The notes under the pieces were generated by a model. The model saw only the letters and a list, made by a program, of their open reading frames with translations. It did not search any database and had not been told where the DNA came from. A stretch of 37,362 nucleotides of DNA from Archangiaceae bacterium (lineage in GTDB: Bacteria; Myxococcota; Myxococcia; Myxococcales; Myxococcaceae): positions 1 to 37,362 of the forward strand of contig JAHFDQ010000004.1 of NCBI GenBank assembly GCA_023248915.1, read 5' to 3'. The position numbers and the translations under genes were made by a program. Of this stretch, positions 6,233-15,699 are shown one piece after another (the first letter of the stretch is position 1; every line of letters starts with the position of its first letter).

Positions 6233-6811
6233 CTACGCTCGGGGCGCCATCGCCAGGGGAATCTTGAACAGGTCCATCACCTGCTGCACGTCGACGGGCT
6301 TGAAGACGCAGGTGGCGGCGCCGGCCTTCAGGGCCTGCTCGACCAGGTCCGCGTTCTGGCGGGCGGTCATGGCGATGCAGCGCACGCCCTCGAGCTGCTT
6401 GTGCGAGCGCACCCGCCGAATGACTTCGAGGCCGTCCAGGTCGGGCATGTTGAGGTCGATGAGCAGGCCGTGCGGCTTCTGCTCGGACACCATCAAGAGC
6501 GCCTCGACGCCGCTGGTGGTGGTGAGCAGCTCGACCTGCGCGGCGAACGGCTTGAACGCCCGCCGCAGCCCGTCGAGCACCGGCTTCTCGTCGTCGACCG
6601 CGAGCAATTTCACCAGGCCGCTGCCCAGCTCGGTGGGGACCGGCATCTGGTGCGCCACCAGGAACGTGCGCAGGTCGGTGGCGCGCACCCGGCGGTGGCG
6701 GCCCGGAGTGCGGAACGCCATCAGCAAGCCTCGGTCAATCCACTTCGAGATGGTGGAGGGGTCGACCTGCAGAAGGCGGCTGATGTCGTGCGTCGTGTAA
6801 AGCGGGTCCAT
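6233..6811 (-). CDS. Excisionase/MerR-like HTH fused to C-terminal response-regulator receiver domain
   Basis: YTTHDISRLLQVDPSTISKWIDRGLLMAFRTPGRHRRVRATDLRTFL, then VDDEKPVLDG...LLIDLNMPDLDG...AMTAR...FKPVD with all REC catalytic residues. Confidence 0.87.
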   Translation of the reverse strand: MDPLYTTHDISRLLQVDPSTISKWIDRGLLMAFRTPGRHRRVRATDLRTFLVAHQMPVPTELGSGLVKLLAVDDEKPVLDGLRRAFKPFAAQVELLTTTSGVEALLMVSEQKPHGLLIDLNMPDLDGLEVIRRVRSHKQLEGVRCIAMTARQNADLVEQALKAGAATCVFKPVDVQQVMDLFKIPLAMAPRA

Positions 6812-8656: not shown

Positions 8657-10150
8657 TCACTCGTCCAACAGCACCACCGGCACCGACCGGCCGAGGCTGG
8701 GGCTCCAGCGCAAGAGCTCGGCGTCTGCCCCGCGCACCTGCAGGAAGGTGTACTGGACCCGGTCTCTCGGCACCATCACCTCGTGGCTGAACACCGCAAT
8801 CCAGGTGCCGGTGTTGAAGTACCAGGCCTTGCCGCCCGACGGCCGGTCCAACCGCCAGAGGACTTCGTCGTGGGTGTGACCGAAGGTGACGACGCCAACG
8901 TCGAGCTCGCTGGCAATCTCCTGGGCCGCGCGTTTCAGCGGGCGGGGCCGCACCTCGGGCGCCTCGCGCCACAGGGCGTACGAGACGCCGGCCAACAGGC
9001 CCACCGCGGTGATGCCGTTCAGGAGCAGGAACAGCAGCGTCCGCACCGGAAACTCGACTTGCAGGGTGGCGATGACGTCGAACAGGGTGAACCAGGCCCC
9101 CGAGGCGGCCACCGCCAGCAACAGCCCGAGCGTCCCCCACTTGGCCACCGGCCACACCAGCGCCCGGACGGCCAGCACCAGGCTGGGAGCCACCTTCTTC
9201 AGCCCTTCGATGCGCCGCAGCTTCTCGCCCAGGCCCGAGGCATCGCAGAGCGCCTCGAGCTCTTCGGTGTGGGCCTGCTCGAGCGCGCGCGTCGGCACCA
9301 CCGCGGTGCCCAGGCGCCGGAGGAACTGCAGGCCGAACGGGCCGTGGCTGGCCAAGACGCGCAAGAGGAGCCCGGGCCGGTTCGCCACCAGCCAGCGCAC
9401 GTAGCGCAGGTTGGCGCGGGTGCTGGGCACCACGAACGCCAGGGCCCCGAAGGCGTTGTACAGGTAGCGCTGGCAGAACGAGCCGAGCGGCAGGTCGCGC
9501 TCGAGCTGGGCCAGGGCGTCGGCCCGCCCCTGGGCCCGCGACCGCAGGTGGTACCGGAACGAGCTCTCGGCGTCGTACTGGCAGCCGTGCTCGACCCACA
9601 TTCGCCCGGGGACGTGGAAGAACCAGGGCTCAAAGGAAAGGCTCTCCTTCGCGCGGCTCTCGGCCTCGGCCCCTCGCGACGCGCGCACAGAGGACAGCAG
9701 CGCTTCCCTCACCGCGGCGTGGGCGTCGGGCCATTGCAGCTCGATGTCGTGGTTGCCGGGCAGAAACACCACCCGGTGCCCCGACGCGAGCAACAAGGCC
9801 ACGCCCTCGACGAAGCGGGGGTGGCCCAACAGCACGTCCTTCAGCATGCTGCCCGCGCGGTCGGGCGTCACCACCGGCCCGTAGCGCTTCTCGCGGCGGG
9901 TGGCGTCTTCGCCCACCGGTTCGGGCTCGATGCGCAAGAGGTCGAAGGTGTCGCCGTTGAAGACGACGACCAGCCCGTTGCGGCGCTCGGCGGCCTCGCG
10001 GCACAGGTGCTCGCAGAAGCGGAAGAAGTCCTCGTCGTAGAAGAAGGCCTCGAGGGCGTGAAAGCGCCCGGTCTCGGCGTTCCGCCCGCGGCCCAGGTGC
10101 AGGTCGCTCAGCACCACGATGTCCGGCACGGCGGCACCCGGGGGGCTCAT
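8657..10150 (-). CDS. Calcineurin-like metallophosphoesterase with inserted hydrophobic segments
   Basis: DIVVLSDLHLG, FNGDTFDLL, FLPGNHDIEL, VTFGHTHDEV; hydrophobic LGLLLAVAASGAWFTLF and TLLFLLLNGITAVGLLAGVSYAL between GNHD and GHTH. Confidence 0.87.
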   Translation of the reverse strand: MSPPGAAVPDIVVLSDLHLGRGRNAETGRFHALEAFFYDEDFFRFCEHLCREAAERRNGLVVVFNGDTFDLLRIEPEPVGEDATRREKRYGPVVTPDRAGSMLKDVLLGHPRFVEGVALLLASGHRVVFLPGNHDIELQWPDAHAAVREALLSSVRASRGAEAESRAKESLSFEPWFFHVPGRMWVEHGCQYDAESSFRYHLRSRAQGRADALAQLERDLPLGSFCQRYLYNAFGALAFVVPSTRANLRYVRWLVANRPGLLLRVLASHGPFGLQFLRRLGTAVVPTRALEQAHTEELEALCDASGLGEKLRRIEGLKKVAPSLVLAVRALVWPVAKWGTLGLLLAVAASGAWFTLFDVIATLQVEFPVRTLLFLLLNGITAVGLLAGVSYALWREAPEVRPRPLKRAAQEIASELDVGVVTFGHTHDEVLWRLDRPSGGKAWYFNTGTWIAVFSHEVMVPRDRVQYTFLQVRGADAELLRWSPSLGRSVPVVLLDE

Positions 10151-10252: not shown

Positions 10253-11638
10253 ATGCAGGCGGCACCGAGCGTCTTCTGTGGGGGTTGCGGTTTCCCAGGC
10301 GAGGACGCCGTCTGCGCCGCCTGCGGGCGGTCTCGCGAGACCCCCGTCCAGGAGCACCCGCCCAAGCGCAGCGGGCGCGTCCTCGCCCCAAGCCCGACGG
10401 ACTTTCCGGCGCTCGCCACGGCCTTCGCGGCGTGGGGCCAGCGCGACTTCCCGCGCATGGTGTCGCACTGCCTCGAATCGGCCGGCATTCGCATTCCCCA
10501 GCCGGAAACGCTGCCGCGGGGCCTGGGGTGGATGTTTTTCCAGCACTCGGCCGCGGTCTTCATCTCGCTGTCCCGGGACGGCGAGCTCGCGGTCGAGTCG
10601 CCCCTGGTGCTCGTCCCCTCGGAGCAACGCGTGGCGCTGTTCCGCGCGTTGCTCGAGCTGAACGAGGCTTCGCTCGGGGCCGCCCGCTTCTGCCTGCGGG
10701 TGGACAAGGTGATTCTCCGCTTCGTCGACCGGGTCGAGAACATCGCACCGCCCAAGCTGATGGAAGCCATTCGCGAGGTGGCGCTGGCCGCCGACCACTT
10801 CGACGACCTGTTGGCGCACCGGTTCTCGGCTCCGATGCTCGGGCCCGAGGTGAAGAAGCACAAGACGCCGTGGCAGCTCTTGGGGCCGCCGGTCGTCCTC
10901 AAGATTGACGTCGACGCGCCGCCGGCCCGGTTCGAGCTCGAGAGCCTGTCCGACCACGTCGCGGGCGCGTCGGGGCGCAGCTTCCTGCCGCCCGTCGACG
11001 ACGCCGAAGAGCTCGAACTCGCCCGCCCGGTGCGCAGCGCTGCCTCGGAGGAGGAGGCCGGCCCCTTGGCGATGCTCGGCCAGGCGCAGCAGATTGCCGA
11101 GCGGCACCTCGAAGAAGGGGTGCTCGGCCTCCTGGTGCTGCGGGCCGCGGCGTACAAGGCGCGCGCTCTCTTCCGCGTCGAGCACCAGCCTCAGGCGTCG
11201 TGGCTGTTGCGCGGCCTGGGCGCGTGGCTCGGCGCGCTGCCCGAAGTGCCGTCCGGCGGCCTCTTCGCCAAGCTCAAGCTGCAGGGCGGCCCGGGGCGCC
11301 CCTCGTTTTCCGAAGTCAATGGAGTGCTCGCCGACATCCTCGACAACTCGGCGGTCATCGGGCCCGAGTGGAACGGCGTGTACCCCATTCCGGCGTTCAC
11401 CAGCCCCGAGGACGCGCGCCAGCACGTTCGTAAGCTGGTCGCTGCCGTCGCGGGGGCGGCGAACGACGACGAACTGCGCGGGCTGGTGCTCGAAGGAGCG
11501 CTCTGCGAGATGCTGCTGCGCTGCAACGCCAAGAACGACGTGGTGGACGCAGTGCTGACCACCGTGTGCCAAGCCTCTCGCCCCGGGCCGATGCGGGTGC
11601 AGCAGCTCCAGAAGCTCTTGACGAGGTTGTTCACGTGA
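10253..11638 (+). CDS. Zinc-ribbon protein with YbjN / type III chaperone-like domain
   Basis: N-terminal CGGCGFPGEDAVCAACG ribbon; EQRVALFRALLELNEASLGAARFCLRVDKVILRF resembles YbjN/CesT-type fold and is shared with the downstream protease. Confidence 0.65.
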   Translation: MQAAPSVFCGGCGFPGEDAVCAACGRSRETPVQEHPPKRSGRVLAPSPTDFPALATAFAAWGQRDFPRMVSHCLESAGIRIPQPETLPRGLGWMFFQHSAAVFISLSRDGELAVESPLVLVPSEQRVALFRALLELNEASLGAARFCLRVDKVILRFVDRVENIAPPKLMEAIREVALAADHFDDLLAHRFSAPMLGPEVKKHKTPWQLLGPPVVLKIDVDAPPARFELESLSDHVAGASGRSFLPPVDDAEELELARPVRSAASEEEAGPLAMLGQAQQIAERHLEEGVLGLLVLRAAAYKARALFRVEHQPQASWLLRGLGAWLGALPEVPSGGLFAKLKLQGGPGRPSFSEVNGVLADILDNSAVIGPEWNGVYPIPAFTSPEDARQHVRKLVAAVAGAANDDELRGLVLEGALCEMLLRCNAKNDVVDAVLTTVCQASRPGPMRVQQLQKLLTRLFT

Positions 11639-12774
11639 GCGCCACCGACGTCTGGCAGATGACGCGGCAGGCGGTCGCCGGCATTCGCAGCGACGGCGGC
11701 ATCGGGTCGGGCTGGGTCGCGGCGCGCAACGGGCTGGTGGTGACCAACCTGCACGTGGTGGGGTACGAGCGAAGCGTCTCGCTGCACTTCTTCGACGGGC
11801 GGCAGTGCGGCGCGCAGGTGGTGTGGGCCGACGCCCGGCTGGACATCGCCTTCCTGTTTCCCGACGTCGAGGCGGAAGTCCAGTCGCTGCCCATCGCCCA
11901 GGCCAACGCCGCCCAGGTCGGCCAACAGGTGTTCGCCGTCGGCCACCCCCACGGGCTGGCGTTCACCATGACGGAAGGCATCGTCTCGGCGATGGACCGC
12001 GCCGACGAGCGCGGCGTGAAGATGATTCAGACGGACGCCCCGCTGAACCCGGGCAACAGCGGCGGTCCGCTGGTCACCGAGAAGGGCGTCGTCATCGGGG
12101 TGAATACCCGGGCGTTCATCCAGGGGCAGAACCTCGGCTTCGCGGTGCCGGTGGCGACCTTCATCGACGCGCTGAAACAGCACCTGGGCAACGCCGACGA
12201 GCTTCGGGGGCGCCAGCCGACCTACCGGTGCGTCGAGTGTTCCACCGAGCACGCCCCGACGCAGATTCAGTGCAACAGCTGCGGGGCCCAGGTTCGCTTC
12301 GCCGAGCACCGGAACCACCTGTACCGCCGCCGGTCGAGAGCACACGGCGAGAACGTCGCCACCCAGTTGCTGAGCGCGACGGGCTGGGACCCGGTCGCCA
12401 CCGCCATCGGGCCGGGGCTGTGGCGCCGACGGTCGTCGGGGGGGGAAGTGACCGCCGGCCTCGACCCGGAAGGCGAGAACATCACCTTCCGGGCGCGCCT
12501 GGTCGAGTTGCCCGAGCAGAACCACGAGGCGTTCTTCCGGTTCTTGCTCTCGCTGAACGACGCGACCGTGGGCAGTTGCCGCCTATCGCTCGAGGGCCGG
12601 GCGGTGACCTTGTCGATGACCGAACCCATCGCCTTCCTCTACGCGAACGAGGCGGTGAAGAACACCGAGCGCCTGGTGTCGCTGGCCTCGGCGCTTCGCC
12701 GGCTCTTGCGACAGCGCTTCGGAGCGGCCGTGGTGGAAGCCCAGGCGCCGCTGTTCGGCACCACCCTCGAGTAG
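11635..12774 (+). CDS. Leaderless trypsin-like (HtrA/DegP-type, no PDZ) serine protease + zinc ribbon + YbjN-like C-terminal domain
   Basis: GTG start overlapping upstream TGA; NGLVVTNLHVVG (His), DARLDIAFL (Asp), LNPGNSGGPL (Ser); CVECSTEHAPTQIQCNSCG ribbon; C-terminal NHEAFFRFLLSLNDATVGSCRLSLEGRAVTLS. Confidence 0.8.
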   Translation: MSATDVWQMTRQAVAGIRSDGGIGSGWVAARNGLVVTNLHVVGYERSVSLHFFDGRQCGAQVVWADARLDIAFLFPDVEAEVQSLPIAQANAAQVGQQVFAVGHPHGLAFTMTEGIVSAMDRADERGVKMIQTDAPLNPGNSGGPLVTEKGVVIGVNTRAFIQGQNLGFAVPVATFIDALKQHLGNADELRGRQPTYRCVECSTEHAPTQIQCNSCGAQVRFAEHRNHLYRRRSRAHGENVATQLLSATGWDPVATAIGPGLWRRRSSGGEVTAGLDPEGENITFRARLVELPEQNHEAFFRFLLSLNDATVGSCRLSLEGRAVTLSMTEPIAFLYANEAVKNTERLVSLASALRRLLRQRFGAAVVEAQAPLFGTTLE

Positions 12775-12785
12775 GTCCGCTCCGC

Positions 12786-13733
12786 CTACAGCCAGTGGCG
12801 GTACCGGAACCAGGTGAGCATTCCCACCGGCAGGGCCACGCAGAGCGACAGCACCCCCCAGAGGAAGGGCCGGCCGTTGATGCCCTCGAAGTTCTGCCCG
12901 AAGAAGCTGGTGAGGAAGGACAGCGGCAGGAAGATGGTCGCGAACAGGGTGAGCTGCTTGGTGACCTCGTTCGTCTTGTTGGCCAGCATCGACAGGTAGC
13001 CGTCCATCGCGTTGCCGAGCATGTCGCGCGCGGTGTCTATCTGCTCGTACATGCGGACCAGGTGGTCGTAGACGTCGCGGAAGTACAGGCTGGTCCGTTC
13101 TCCGACGTGGGGAATGCCGCGCCGGGCCAGCAGGGCCACCACGTCGCGCTGGGGGGACAGCACCCGGCGCAGCCGCGCCAGCGCCCGCTTCAGCTCGAAG
13201 GAATGGGCGAGGTGGCGCTTGTGGGGGACGTCGAAAATTTCCTGCTCGAGGTCTTCGAGGGTGTCGTTGAACGCGTCGAGCAGCGGGAAGCCCTGGTCGA
13301 TGAGGGCGTCGGCCAACAGGTAGGCGACGAAGTCGACGCCCCGCCCCATCGTCGCCGCCGGGTCGGCCTCGAGGCGCCGGCCGACCGCCTCGACCAGCGG
13401 CGCCGCCCGCTCGTGAACCGAGAGCAGCCAGTCGGGGCCGAGGAAGAGGTGCAGCTCTTGCAGTTCGAGGTCGGCCCAGCTCTTCGGCACCCCGGCGAAG
13501 GCCTGCAAGACGATGAAGACGTGGCCCGGGTACTCCTCGAGCTTCGGCCGTTGGTCGAGGTGGAGGCAGTCTTCGACGGCCAGGGCGTGCAGCGCGAACC
13601 GGCTCGCCAGCGGCGCCAGCGCGGCCTCGGTCGGGTCGGCCACGTCTATCCACTTCGTGCCGGGCTCATCCAGCAGCTCGAGCCCTCCCCGGCGAAGCGC
13701 CCCGGCCGGCGTCAGCAATGTCACGCGAGTCAC
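12786..13733 (-). CDS. CorA-family divalent metal ion transporter
   Basis: C-terminal TM pair LFATIFLPLSFLTSFFGQNFEG...FLWGVLSLCVALPVGMLTWFRYRHWL and CorA-type soluble domain; signature is GQN rather than GMN. Confidence 0.87.
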   Translation of the reverse strand: MTRVTLLTPAGALRRGGLELLDEPGTKWIDVADPTEAALAPLASRFALHALAVEDCLHLDQRPKLEEYPGHVFIVLQAFAGVPKSWADLELQELHLFLGPDWLLSVHERAAPLVEAVGRRLEADPAATMGRGVDFVAYLLADALIDQGFPLLDAFNDTLEDLEQEIFDVPHKRHLAHSFELKRALARLRRVLSPQRDVVALLARRGIPHVGERTSLYFRDVYDHLVRMYEQIDTARDMLGNAMDGYLSMLANKTNEVTKQLTLFATIFLPLSFLTSFFGQNFEGINGRPFLWGVLSLCVALPVGMLTWFRYRHWL

Positions 13734-13800
13734 GGGCGGCGCTGTATCGGCTTCCGCGCCCGTTTTCCACCGGCGACTGGCCCGGCCGGCGGCGGACGCT

Positions 13801-15699
13801 CTAGCCCACGGCCGCCGCGGCGCCGTCGGCCACGACCGGAAGGGCCGGCACCCCGGCGGGCGTGACGAGTTCGGGCTCGACCGGCACACGGCGGCGCGGA
13901 ATGGCCACCGATTGCGGTCGGGGTTCCGGGCGCGGCACGCCACGGGGGTAGCGGTGGTCGAAGGTGCCGTAGTGGGTCAGGTGGCAGCGGGGGTTTTCGG
14001 CGACCCGGGTCACCTGCGCGCGCCGGTGCCGACGCGCTTCGAGCGCCATCGACGCCCGCACCAGCGGCGTCGCCAGGGCCGAGGCCGCCCGGCCCGACAG
14101 CCCGGTCTCGGCCAAGAGCGCCTCGCGCAGCTCGTCGAGGCGTCCGCACACTCGGTGGTTCATCCGCCCCAGGTCCTTCGACATGGCCCCGAGCAGCGGC
14201 AGGTAGATGACGAACATCTTCTTCGTCGCCGCCCGCCGCAACTGGACCAGCTCGTGGTCCCAGTCGCGCGTCTTCACGTAGCCGTCGTAGTGGACCTTCA
14301 TCATCCGGTAGAGAGAAGGGCCGAGCACCTCGAAGTCTTCGACGAAGGCGCGGTCGAGCCGCTCTTCCAGCTCGGCTTCCGCGAGGTGCGGGTGATGCCA
14401 GTTCTGCCTGGCTTGGCCGTGGATTTCCATCCACGGGAAGCCCTGCTTCAATTTGCCGGCCGCCTTCATCTCTTCCCACAGGCCGGTGCCGGGAATGGGC
14501 ATGTACAGCATGAACTGGTTGTAAACGCAGTCGTGGGACAGCGCGTGGTCCACTTCCCGGTCGAGGTCGGCCTTCCGGTGATGCTCGAGCCCGAGGATGG
14601 TCGACCCCAGCACCTCGACCCCGTGCGCCTGGAGCGACCGAATCAGCTCTCGGGTGTCGATTCCGTGCAGCTTGTCGTAGGTGCGCCCGGTGGATTCCTC
14701 GAGGCCAATCCAGACGAAGCAGTAGCCCAGCTTGACGATGTTCTCGATGCCGAGCTTGGCCAAGCCGTTGGCGGAGGAAAAGACGGTGTACCGGTGCGGC
14801 CGCTTCTGCTCTTCCATCAGGCGCAACAGCCGAAGCGCCCGCTTGGTGTCGAGCGAGAAGTTCTCCGACATCACGAACATCTCGGTCCGGCCGCGGTCGG
14901 CCTGGGCGTTCGCGACCGCCATGATGTCCTCGGCCGTGCGCAGGTATTGAACGAAGCGCCCGTCGAACTTGTAGGAAGTCGCGCAGAAGCTGCACTTCAT
15001 CGGGCAACCGACGTCGGGGACCATCAGGCCGGCCGACGTCGACGGAACCGGTATGCCGAAGACGCGCTTGCCGAAGCTGGCGTCCACCAGCGGGGCGTGG
15101 ACGAAGCCCGAGTCTCTCAGCCCGACCCCGCCGAGCTGGGCGTAGTAGTCGAGGCCGTCGCGCTTGACGAAAGTGACTCCGGGGCCCAACCGCCCTTCCC
15201 CTTCCAGCCAGGAGTTGATGGGCAGCCGGTCGCGGCCGAGCCGCTTTCCTTCCCACGCCGGTTCCCACACCCGGAAGGTGTCAGCGGGGTGCAGCTCGAG
15301 CATCCGGCCGACCAGCTCTTTCACCACTCCTTCGTCGGTGGCGATGTGGCCGCCGACGTCGATGGGCACGTCGGGGAGCACGTCGCGGATGAGCTGGTAG
15401 GTGGCGAGCAGGCTCTCGAAGTTCGCCGCGATGGAAGACACGCCAACGCGGTCCCACCGGCCGGCCCGAAGCACGCCTTCCAATTGCCGAGGCAGCGGGA
15501 AGTCAAGGGTGGCCACCTCGGCGTTCAGGTTCGCCCCGAACAGGTCGAAAGCGAACGTCCGCGAGCACATCTGAACCGTGTAGTAGCTCTGCCCGCGGGT
15601 CACTTGGTTGGCGAGCAGGCCCATCGGGTTCTTGAAGCGGCTGCGCCCGCTGTCTACCCCATAAGGGCCGAGCACCGAGGTGAACAGAATCTGGGTCAT
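13801..15699 (-). CDS. Radical SAM protein with possible N-terminal B12-binding-like domain
   Basis: VPDVGCPMKCSFCATS (CxxxCxxC); N-terminal SIAANFESLLATYQLIRDVLPDVPIDVGGHIATDE; strong continuous coding frame. Confidence 0.87.
   Translation of the reverse strand: MTQILFTSVLGPYGVDSGRSRFKNPMGLLANQVTRGQSYYTVQMCSRTFAFDLFGANLNAEVATLDFPLPRQLEGVLRAGRWDRVGVSSIAANFESLLATYQLIRDVLPDVPIDVGGHIATDEGVVKELVGRMLELHPADTFRVWEPAWEGKRLGRDRLPINSWLEGEGRLGPGVTFVKRDGLDYYAQLGGVGLRDSGFVHAPLVDASFGKRVFGIPVPSTSAGLMVPDVGCPMKCSFCATSYKFDGRFVQYLRTAEDIMAVANAQADRGRTEMFVMSENFSLDTKRALRLLRLMEEQKRPHRYTVFSSANGLAKLGIENIVKLGYCFVWIGLEESTGRTYDKLHGIDTRELIRSLQAHGVEVLGSTILGLEHHRKADLDREVDHALSHDCVYNQFMLYMPIPGTGLWEEMKAAGKLKQGFPWMEIHGQARQNWHHPHLAEAELEERLDRAFVEDFEVLGPSLYRMMKVHYDGYVKTRDWDHELVQLRRAATKKMFVIYLPLLGAMSKDLGRMNHRVCGRLDELREALLAETGLSGRAASALATPLVRASMALEARRHRRAQVTRVAENPRCHLTHYGTFDHRYPRGVPRPEPRPQSVAIPRRRVPVEPELVTPAGVPALPVVADGAAAAVG

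Follow-up and report, generated by a model that had tools for sequence, protein, structure and literature searches.

HtrA proteins are textbook envelope proteases, and the function of the YbjN family is unsettled. The locus described here raises the question of what a serine protease of the HtrA type does when it carries neither an export signal nor a PDZ domain and is encoded directly behind a YbjN-like gene with which it shares a domain. The window, i.e., the whole stretch of 37,362 nucleotides that was analysed, is an entire contig (G000:C647). The draft genome to which it belongs measures 6 Mb and comprises 727 contigs. As the flanking genes, encoding a metallophosphoesterase and a CorA transporter, are opposite in orientation, the unit consists of two genes, with the following features:

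8657–10150, minus strand: metallophosphoesterase, flanking gene
10253–11638, plus strand: gene 1, ATG start, 461 aa; ribbon, YbjN/TY-chaperone domain, linker and C-terminal helical domain
10277–10324, plus strand: gene 1 N-terminal CxxC...CxxC ribbon (C9, C12, C21, C24)
10448–10825, plus strand: gene 1 YbjN/TY-chaperone domain (residues about 66–191; Pfam, profile and Foldseek matches)
11039–11635, plus strand: gene 1 C-terminal all-helical domain (residues about 263–461; no family match)
11635–11638, plus strand: GTGA overlap of 4 nt, the gene 2 start codon lying on the gene 1 stop codon
11635–12774, plus strand: gene 2, GTG start, 379 aa; HtrA-like serine protease lacking a leader; ribbon and, at the C-terminus, a TY domain
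11674–12183, plus strand: HtrA/Deg-type trypsin barrel (residues about 14–183; Trypsin_2 and Foldseek)
11752–11754, plus strand: catalytic His40 codon (TNLH40VV)
11842–11844, plus strand: catalytic Asp70 codon (RLD70IAF)
12058–12060, plus strand: catalytic Ser142 codon (GNS142GGP)
12229–12282, plus strand: gene 2 four-cysteine ribbon (C199xxC202...C213xxC216), all four cysteines kept in 48/48 homologues
12337–12720, plus strand: gene 2 C-terminal YbjN/TY-chaperone domain (residues about 235–362; predicted topology α-β-β-β-α-β-β-α)
12786–13943, minus strand: CorA transporter, flanking gene

The preliminary description of this stretch had noted the 4-nt overlap, a CxxC..CxxC ribbon in both proteins, a related domain of YbjN/CesT-like fold in both, an intact His/Asp/Ser triad and the lack of a leader and of a PDZ domain in the protease; these points are borne out by the features above and by the analyses below. 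Elsewhere in the window (6233–6811, minus strand), an HTH_17/MerR-like helix-turn-helix lies upstream of a fused response-regulator receiver domain, an order that is inverted for a response regulator.

Pfam searches identified TY-Chap1 (E 1e-7) and YbjN (4e-5) in the gene 1 product, both above cut-off (PF22551, 32.1 for a cut-off of 27; PF10722, 24.2 for a cut-off of 22), and comparison of the gene 1 profile with the PDB returned 2plg, a solved YbjN-family structure, at E 5.7e-8. The predicted model of the protein (pLDDT 72 overall, about 75–94 across most of the TY domain) has 2plg, ExsC, SycH, CesT and YbjN as Foldseek neighbours, the SycN-YscB heterodimer (1xkp) being also listed, and its predicted fold follows the order α-β-β-β-α-β-β-α, as in 2plg, ExsC and YbjN. 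This is also the order of elements in DR1245 and in type III chaperones (PMC3575483). In the same model, the helical domain is preceded by a low-confidence, probably disordered linker (residues 212–268).

Gene 2 encodes a trypsin-like protein (Pfam Trypsin_2, 5e-30, above cut-off) whose barrel is specifically of the HtrA/Deg type, as indicated by a partial match to the NCBIfam model degP_htrA_DO (5e-45) and by Foldseek, the best matches of the predicted model (pLDDT 83) being DegQ and DegS. The equivalog/subfamily cut-off of degP_htrA_DO was not reached (154 bits vs 416 needed), and no PDZ domain was found by Pfam, by NCBIfam or in the predicted model. In place of PDZ, the barrel is followed after 22–27 residues by the ribbon and then by the TY fold, so that the TY domain is predicted to occupy the position where HtrA carries its PDZ domain. 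A hydrophobic N-terminus is likewise absent from 12/12 protease homologues examined, and the 67-codon open frame before the GTG, where an upstream in-frame start might have supplied a signal peptide, contains no hydrophobic stretch (maximal KD12 0.66); a leader gained in this way, which the preliminary description had named as a refuting finding, is thereby excluded. From the missing leader, the simplest reading is that the gene 2 protease is cytoplasmic, a location predicted from its sequence, with non-classical export as a possible alternative.

The C-terminus of the protease was linked to gene 1 by several comparisons: (i) in a tblastn search of the window, the gene 2 C-terminus matched gene 1 at E 2.5e-4 with 26% identity; (ii) a profile of six protease C-termini, comprising no gene 1 sequence, recovered gene 1 of the window's genome at 2.6e-7 and that of genome G050 at 2.7e-7; (iii) the gene 1 profile recovered the C-termini of the proteases of Bernardetia and of genome G195 at 6e-7 and 3e-6, respectively; (iv) hhalign aligned gene 1 with the protease C-terminus at a probability of 98.9% (E 2.5e-17), the ribbons aligning too; and (v) the protease C-terminus profile matched 2plg in the PDB at E 1.1e-8, the same structure as was matched by the gene 1 profile. 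Pfam detected no YbjN or TY-Chap1 domain at the C-terminus of any of 12 proteases, the Bernardetia homologue scoring only 13.1 bits; because the curated domains miss this region, its TY homology is shown by profile comparison. Whether the two domains share a fold had been set beforehand as a test, and they do. As judged from these sequence and profile comparisons, the gene 1 TY domain and the gene 2 C-terminal domain are homologous, and their likeness is not due to chance. Since the hhalign alignment spans both the TY domains and the ribbons, the protease resembles a barrel to which a copy of the ribbon-TY half of gene 1 has been joined.

To follow the pair in other genomes, 47 protease loci were extracted from Myxococcota and from the class of genome G281, a large-genome group, which with one locus on a Bernardetia plasmid make a set of 48 homologues. 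The full protease is encoded in 6 of the 195 genomes sampled from the window's own phylum, and in 37/290 genomes of the class of G281 (counting matches that reach into the ribbon). Upstream sequence was available for 46 of the 47 loci, and every one of these 46 has a gene 1 homologue as its direct upstream neighbour in the same orientation. The 4-nt overlap recurs in 38 of the 46 testable loci; the other junctions are gaps of about 17–22 nt in five loci of one family, and −1, −8 and +2 in three others. Two module copies within one assembly, L136 and L137 (G588:C6 and G588:C9), are apparently identical, by duplication or through redundant assembly, so that the independent loci are slightly fewer than counted. 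In the reverse search, starting from gene 1, all long homologues with downstream sequence have the protease next, those of G050 and G536 stopping at contig edges; in G050, gene 1 is cut by the contig end, and no full-length protease candidate was found elsewhere in this genome (80% complete). The distances between gene 1 sequences and between protease sequences are correlated across 44 loci (Mantel, r 0.92), a value that largely reflects shared descent. The pair is thus a conserved, translationally coupled two-gene module, its adjacency holding in other genomes, which the preliminary description had set as a test. Genes of YbjN-like and of HtrA-like type are both frequent, and an HtrA protease could come to lie beside an unrelated YbjN gene by chance; the conserved adjacency, the shared domain and the shared overlap refute this explanation, to which we give practically no credence.

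The Bernardetia plasmid protease (L055:5986–7065, NZ_CP147018.1, WP_338791029.1), from Bacteroidota, is a lone, leaderless trypsin-ribbon-TY protein with no adjoining gene 1, and shares 33% identity over 98% with the protease of L028. As the same architecture occurs at this plasmid locus without a gene 1 neighbour, an adjacent gene 1 is apparently not required everywhere. No recurring third gene was found across the 11 neighbourhoods inspected, and neither type III secretion genes nor an effector partner in the inspected loci.

Small stand-alone YbjN-like genes, which score with the TY profiles, are common in genomes of the class of G281 (G195:C96:1500–1922, L090, L091, L092 and L093). L158 (G202), a YbjN protein without a protease, was rejected as a module member. 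Also discarded were chance or ribbon-only matches of the first search with gene 2 (L010, L011 and L012) and out-of-frame or compositional matches of the search with gene 1 (L016 and L017). A first scan of genome contigs with a single protease sequence as query recovered no relative, and the mixed alignment A3 yielded no usable pattern.

The protease tree, a quick build with several long branches in which the placement of the window's sequence is unsure, separates into two starred halves, which correspond to two subtypes. The gene 1 ribbon occurs in loci of the window's type only, and is absent in the other subtype wherever the N-terminus is present. The catalytic triad is intact in 32 of the 48 homologues, including that of the window with its GNSGGP context, and lost in the 16 others, all of which have kept the gene pair. 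In this tree, calculated without the columns around the triad, 15 of the 16 dead proteases form one clade with an SH-aLRT support of 100; the 16th, L134 (G586:C113), arose by a separate single change, with His and Asp kept, Ser replaced by Ala (GHAGGP) and the pair otherwise intact. Mean protease dN/dS values in two sets of close relatives within the dead clade are 0.17 and 0.29, and as these values are low, the genes are not decaying. The pseudoprotease clade is old and under purifying selection, and the ribbon, the TY domain and the pairing are all retained in the pseudoprotease clades. The existence of this ancient clade indicates that proteolysis is not the sole function of the module. Genomes G393, G687 and G700 each encode one active and one dead module, at separate loci.

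These data bear on the relation between the two proteins. The gene 1 protein could be devoted to the protease as its inhibitor, activator or substrate, with a TY domain that caps or replaces the protease's own and switches activity in response to a signal such as the redox or zinc state of the ribbons. Strict pairing and translational coupling would suit such control, the shared domain permits exchange between homodimers and heterodimers, and an uncontrolled HtrA protease in the cytoplasm would probably need restraint. However, the pair survives with a dead protease, where control of catalysis has no meaning, and redox switching through gene 1 cannot apply throughout, as a whole subtype lacks the gene 1 ribbon; we consider this explanation a serious rival, but less likely than not. 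The barrel, ribbon and TY domain might otherwise form the binding scaffold of a regulatory complex, with peptides or nucleic acid as ligands, proteolysis being secondary or residual. The retention of pseudoproteases across long divergence at low dN/dS and the invariance of the ribbon cysteines beside a variable triad are consistent with such a role, and inactive trypsin domains of other bacterial systems have been interpreted as binding peptides (PMC7159879). Nevertheless, two thirds of the homologues (32/48), the window's included, have the full triad and GNSGGP, which argues that catalysis is selected in most lineages; a mainly scaffolding role, although the other serious rival, is rather improbable.

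The preliminary description had also suggested a role in a stress or conflict response. Were the pair to act against phages or in conflicts between bacteria, the protease would be an effector freed once its partner senses an invader; the patchy distribution of the module would fit, TY-chaperone domains are found in predicted ADP-ribose conflict systems (PMC9503650), and trypsin domains in other predicted conflict systems (PMC7159879). However, the 11 inspected loci contain no defence or mobile neighbours and have no third gene in common, PADLOC returned no model for gene 1 and matched gene 2 only through the trypsin part of its RT-Protease models and weaker generic ones, and relatives of gene 1 are absent from 72,556 plasmid and 50,697 phage records. 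With the low dN/dS values, these results lend no support to a stress- or conflict-response role, and we regard a conflict system as very improbable. This part of the earlier interpretation is thus unsupported, whereas the conserved undescribed module, the shared fold and the leaderless, PDZ-less protease stand.

Searches of the literature outside subscription that joined YbjN or TY-Chap to trypsin, serine protease or zinc ribbon turned up no account of a comparable gene pair, although absence there is not proof; the module, conserved as a pair, is apparently undescribed, as had been suggested. With HtrA/Deg proteases (DegP, DegQ, DegS; S1C), gene 2 shares the barrel fold, the His/Asp/Ser triad and the GNSGGP and GFA-P motifs, but it has no signal peptide, membrane anchor or PDZ domain, carrying instead a ribbon and a TY domain, and it has a TY-protein partner. 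With YbjN, DR1245, TY-Chap1 and the class I type III secretion chaperones, the module shares fold and topology, 2plg being the nearest solved structure for the domains of both genes; here, in contrast, a protease carries the domain as a fusion, a second copy belongs to a partner that has an additional helical domain, and the inspected loci offer no type III secretion context. The presence of active and inactive HtrA-type proteins in one genome, as in G393, G687 and G700, recalls MamE and MamO, a magnetosome HtrA protease and a repurposed HtrA protease (PMC4794232). Their accessory domains are unrelated, however, and the dead and active forms described here belong to separate two-gene modules. 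MamE and MamO are not known to carry a TY domain or a ribbon arranged as in gene 2. In the Trypco1/2 and NucA-trypsin pairs of predicted conflict systems, too, a small gene is often found next to one for a trypsin domain, and inactive trypsins occur (PMC7159879); unlike in these, no MoxR/vWA, EAD, NucA or STAND partner was seen with the present module, its partner has a YbjN fold and its context is not defence. Each part is a known fold, and the combination lacks export and PDZ, two features that define HtrA proteins of bacteria, and gains a partner.

YbjN proteins form dimers, their conserved residues corresponding to the core and the dimer interface, and in type III chaperones of the YbjN fold the client chains wrap around the dimer (PMC5398634). 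The contacts of the DR1245 dimer are similar to those between chaperones and substrates (PMC3575483), and SycN-YscB (1xkp) provides a precedent for a heterodimer among chaperones of this fold. Peptide binding by YbjN-family proteins is itself a mostly inferred property. As both TY domains are translated from a single overlapping message, always in the same order, a heterodimer is the natural expectation, and because the TY domain sits at the PDZ position of HtrA, client capture by the TY pair followed by cleavage in the barrel is the simplest model. The gene 1 TY domain would associate with its C-terminal counterpart in the protease, in the manner of YbjN or type III chaperone dimers, forming a peptide-binding replacement for the PDZ domains of ordinary HtrA. 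This unit would catch cytoplasmic client chains that are unfolded or partly folded, the helical domain of gene 1 possibly adding specificity, and the barrel would cut the bound clients independently of ATP. In the pseudoprotease lineages binding alone would remain, and the module could sequester clients as a chaperone, serve as a decoy or regulate an active paralogue. That the TY pair is a peptide-binding unit, selecting the clients that a cytoplasmic HtrA-like protease cleaves or, in the dead forms, sequestering them, is the likeliest of the readings we infer, if somewhat short of an even chance. More tentatively, the locus may represent an undescribed module for cytoplasmic, ATP-independent proteolysis in which a type III chaperone-like heterodimer replaces PDZ, and in which an ancient pseudoprotease branch binds without cutting and may restrain or redirect the active proteases.

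A gene pair that fuses the YbjN and HtrA folds, and that exists in active and dead versions, provides a direct test of the ligands of the YbjN fold, with the protease as readout, and its pseudoprotease clade is a natural experiment on the loss of catalysis. The module further suggests that HtrA barrels, equipped with a new recognition domain, were co-opted for work in the cytoplasm.
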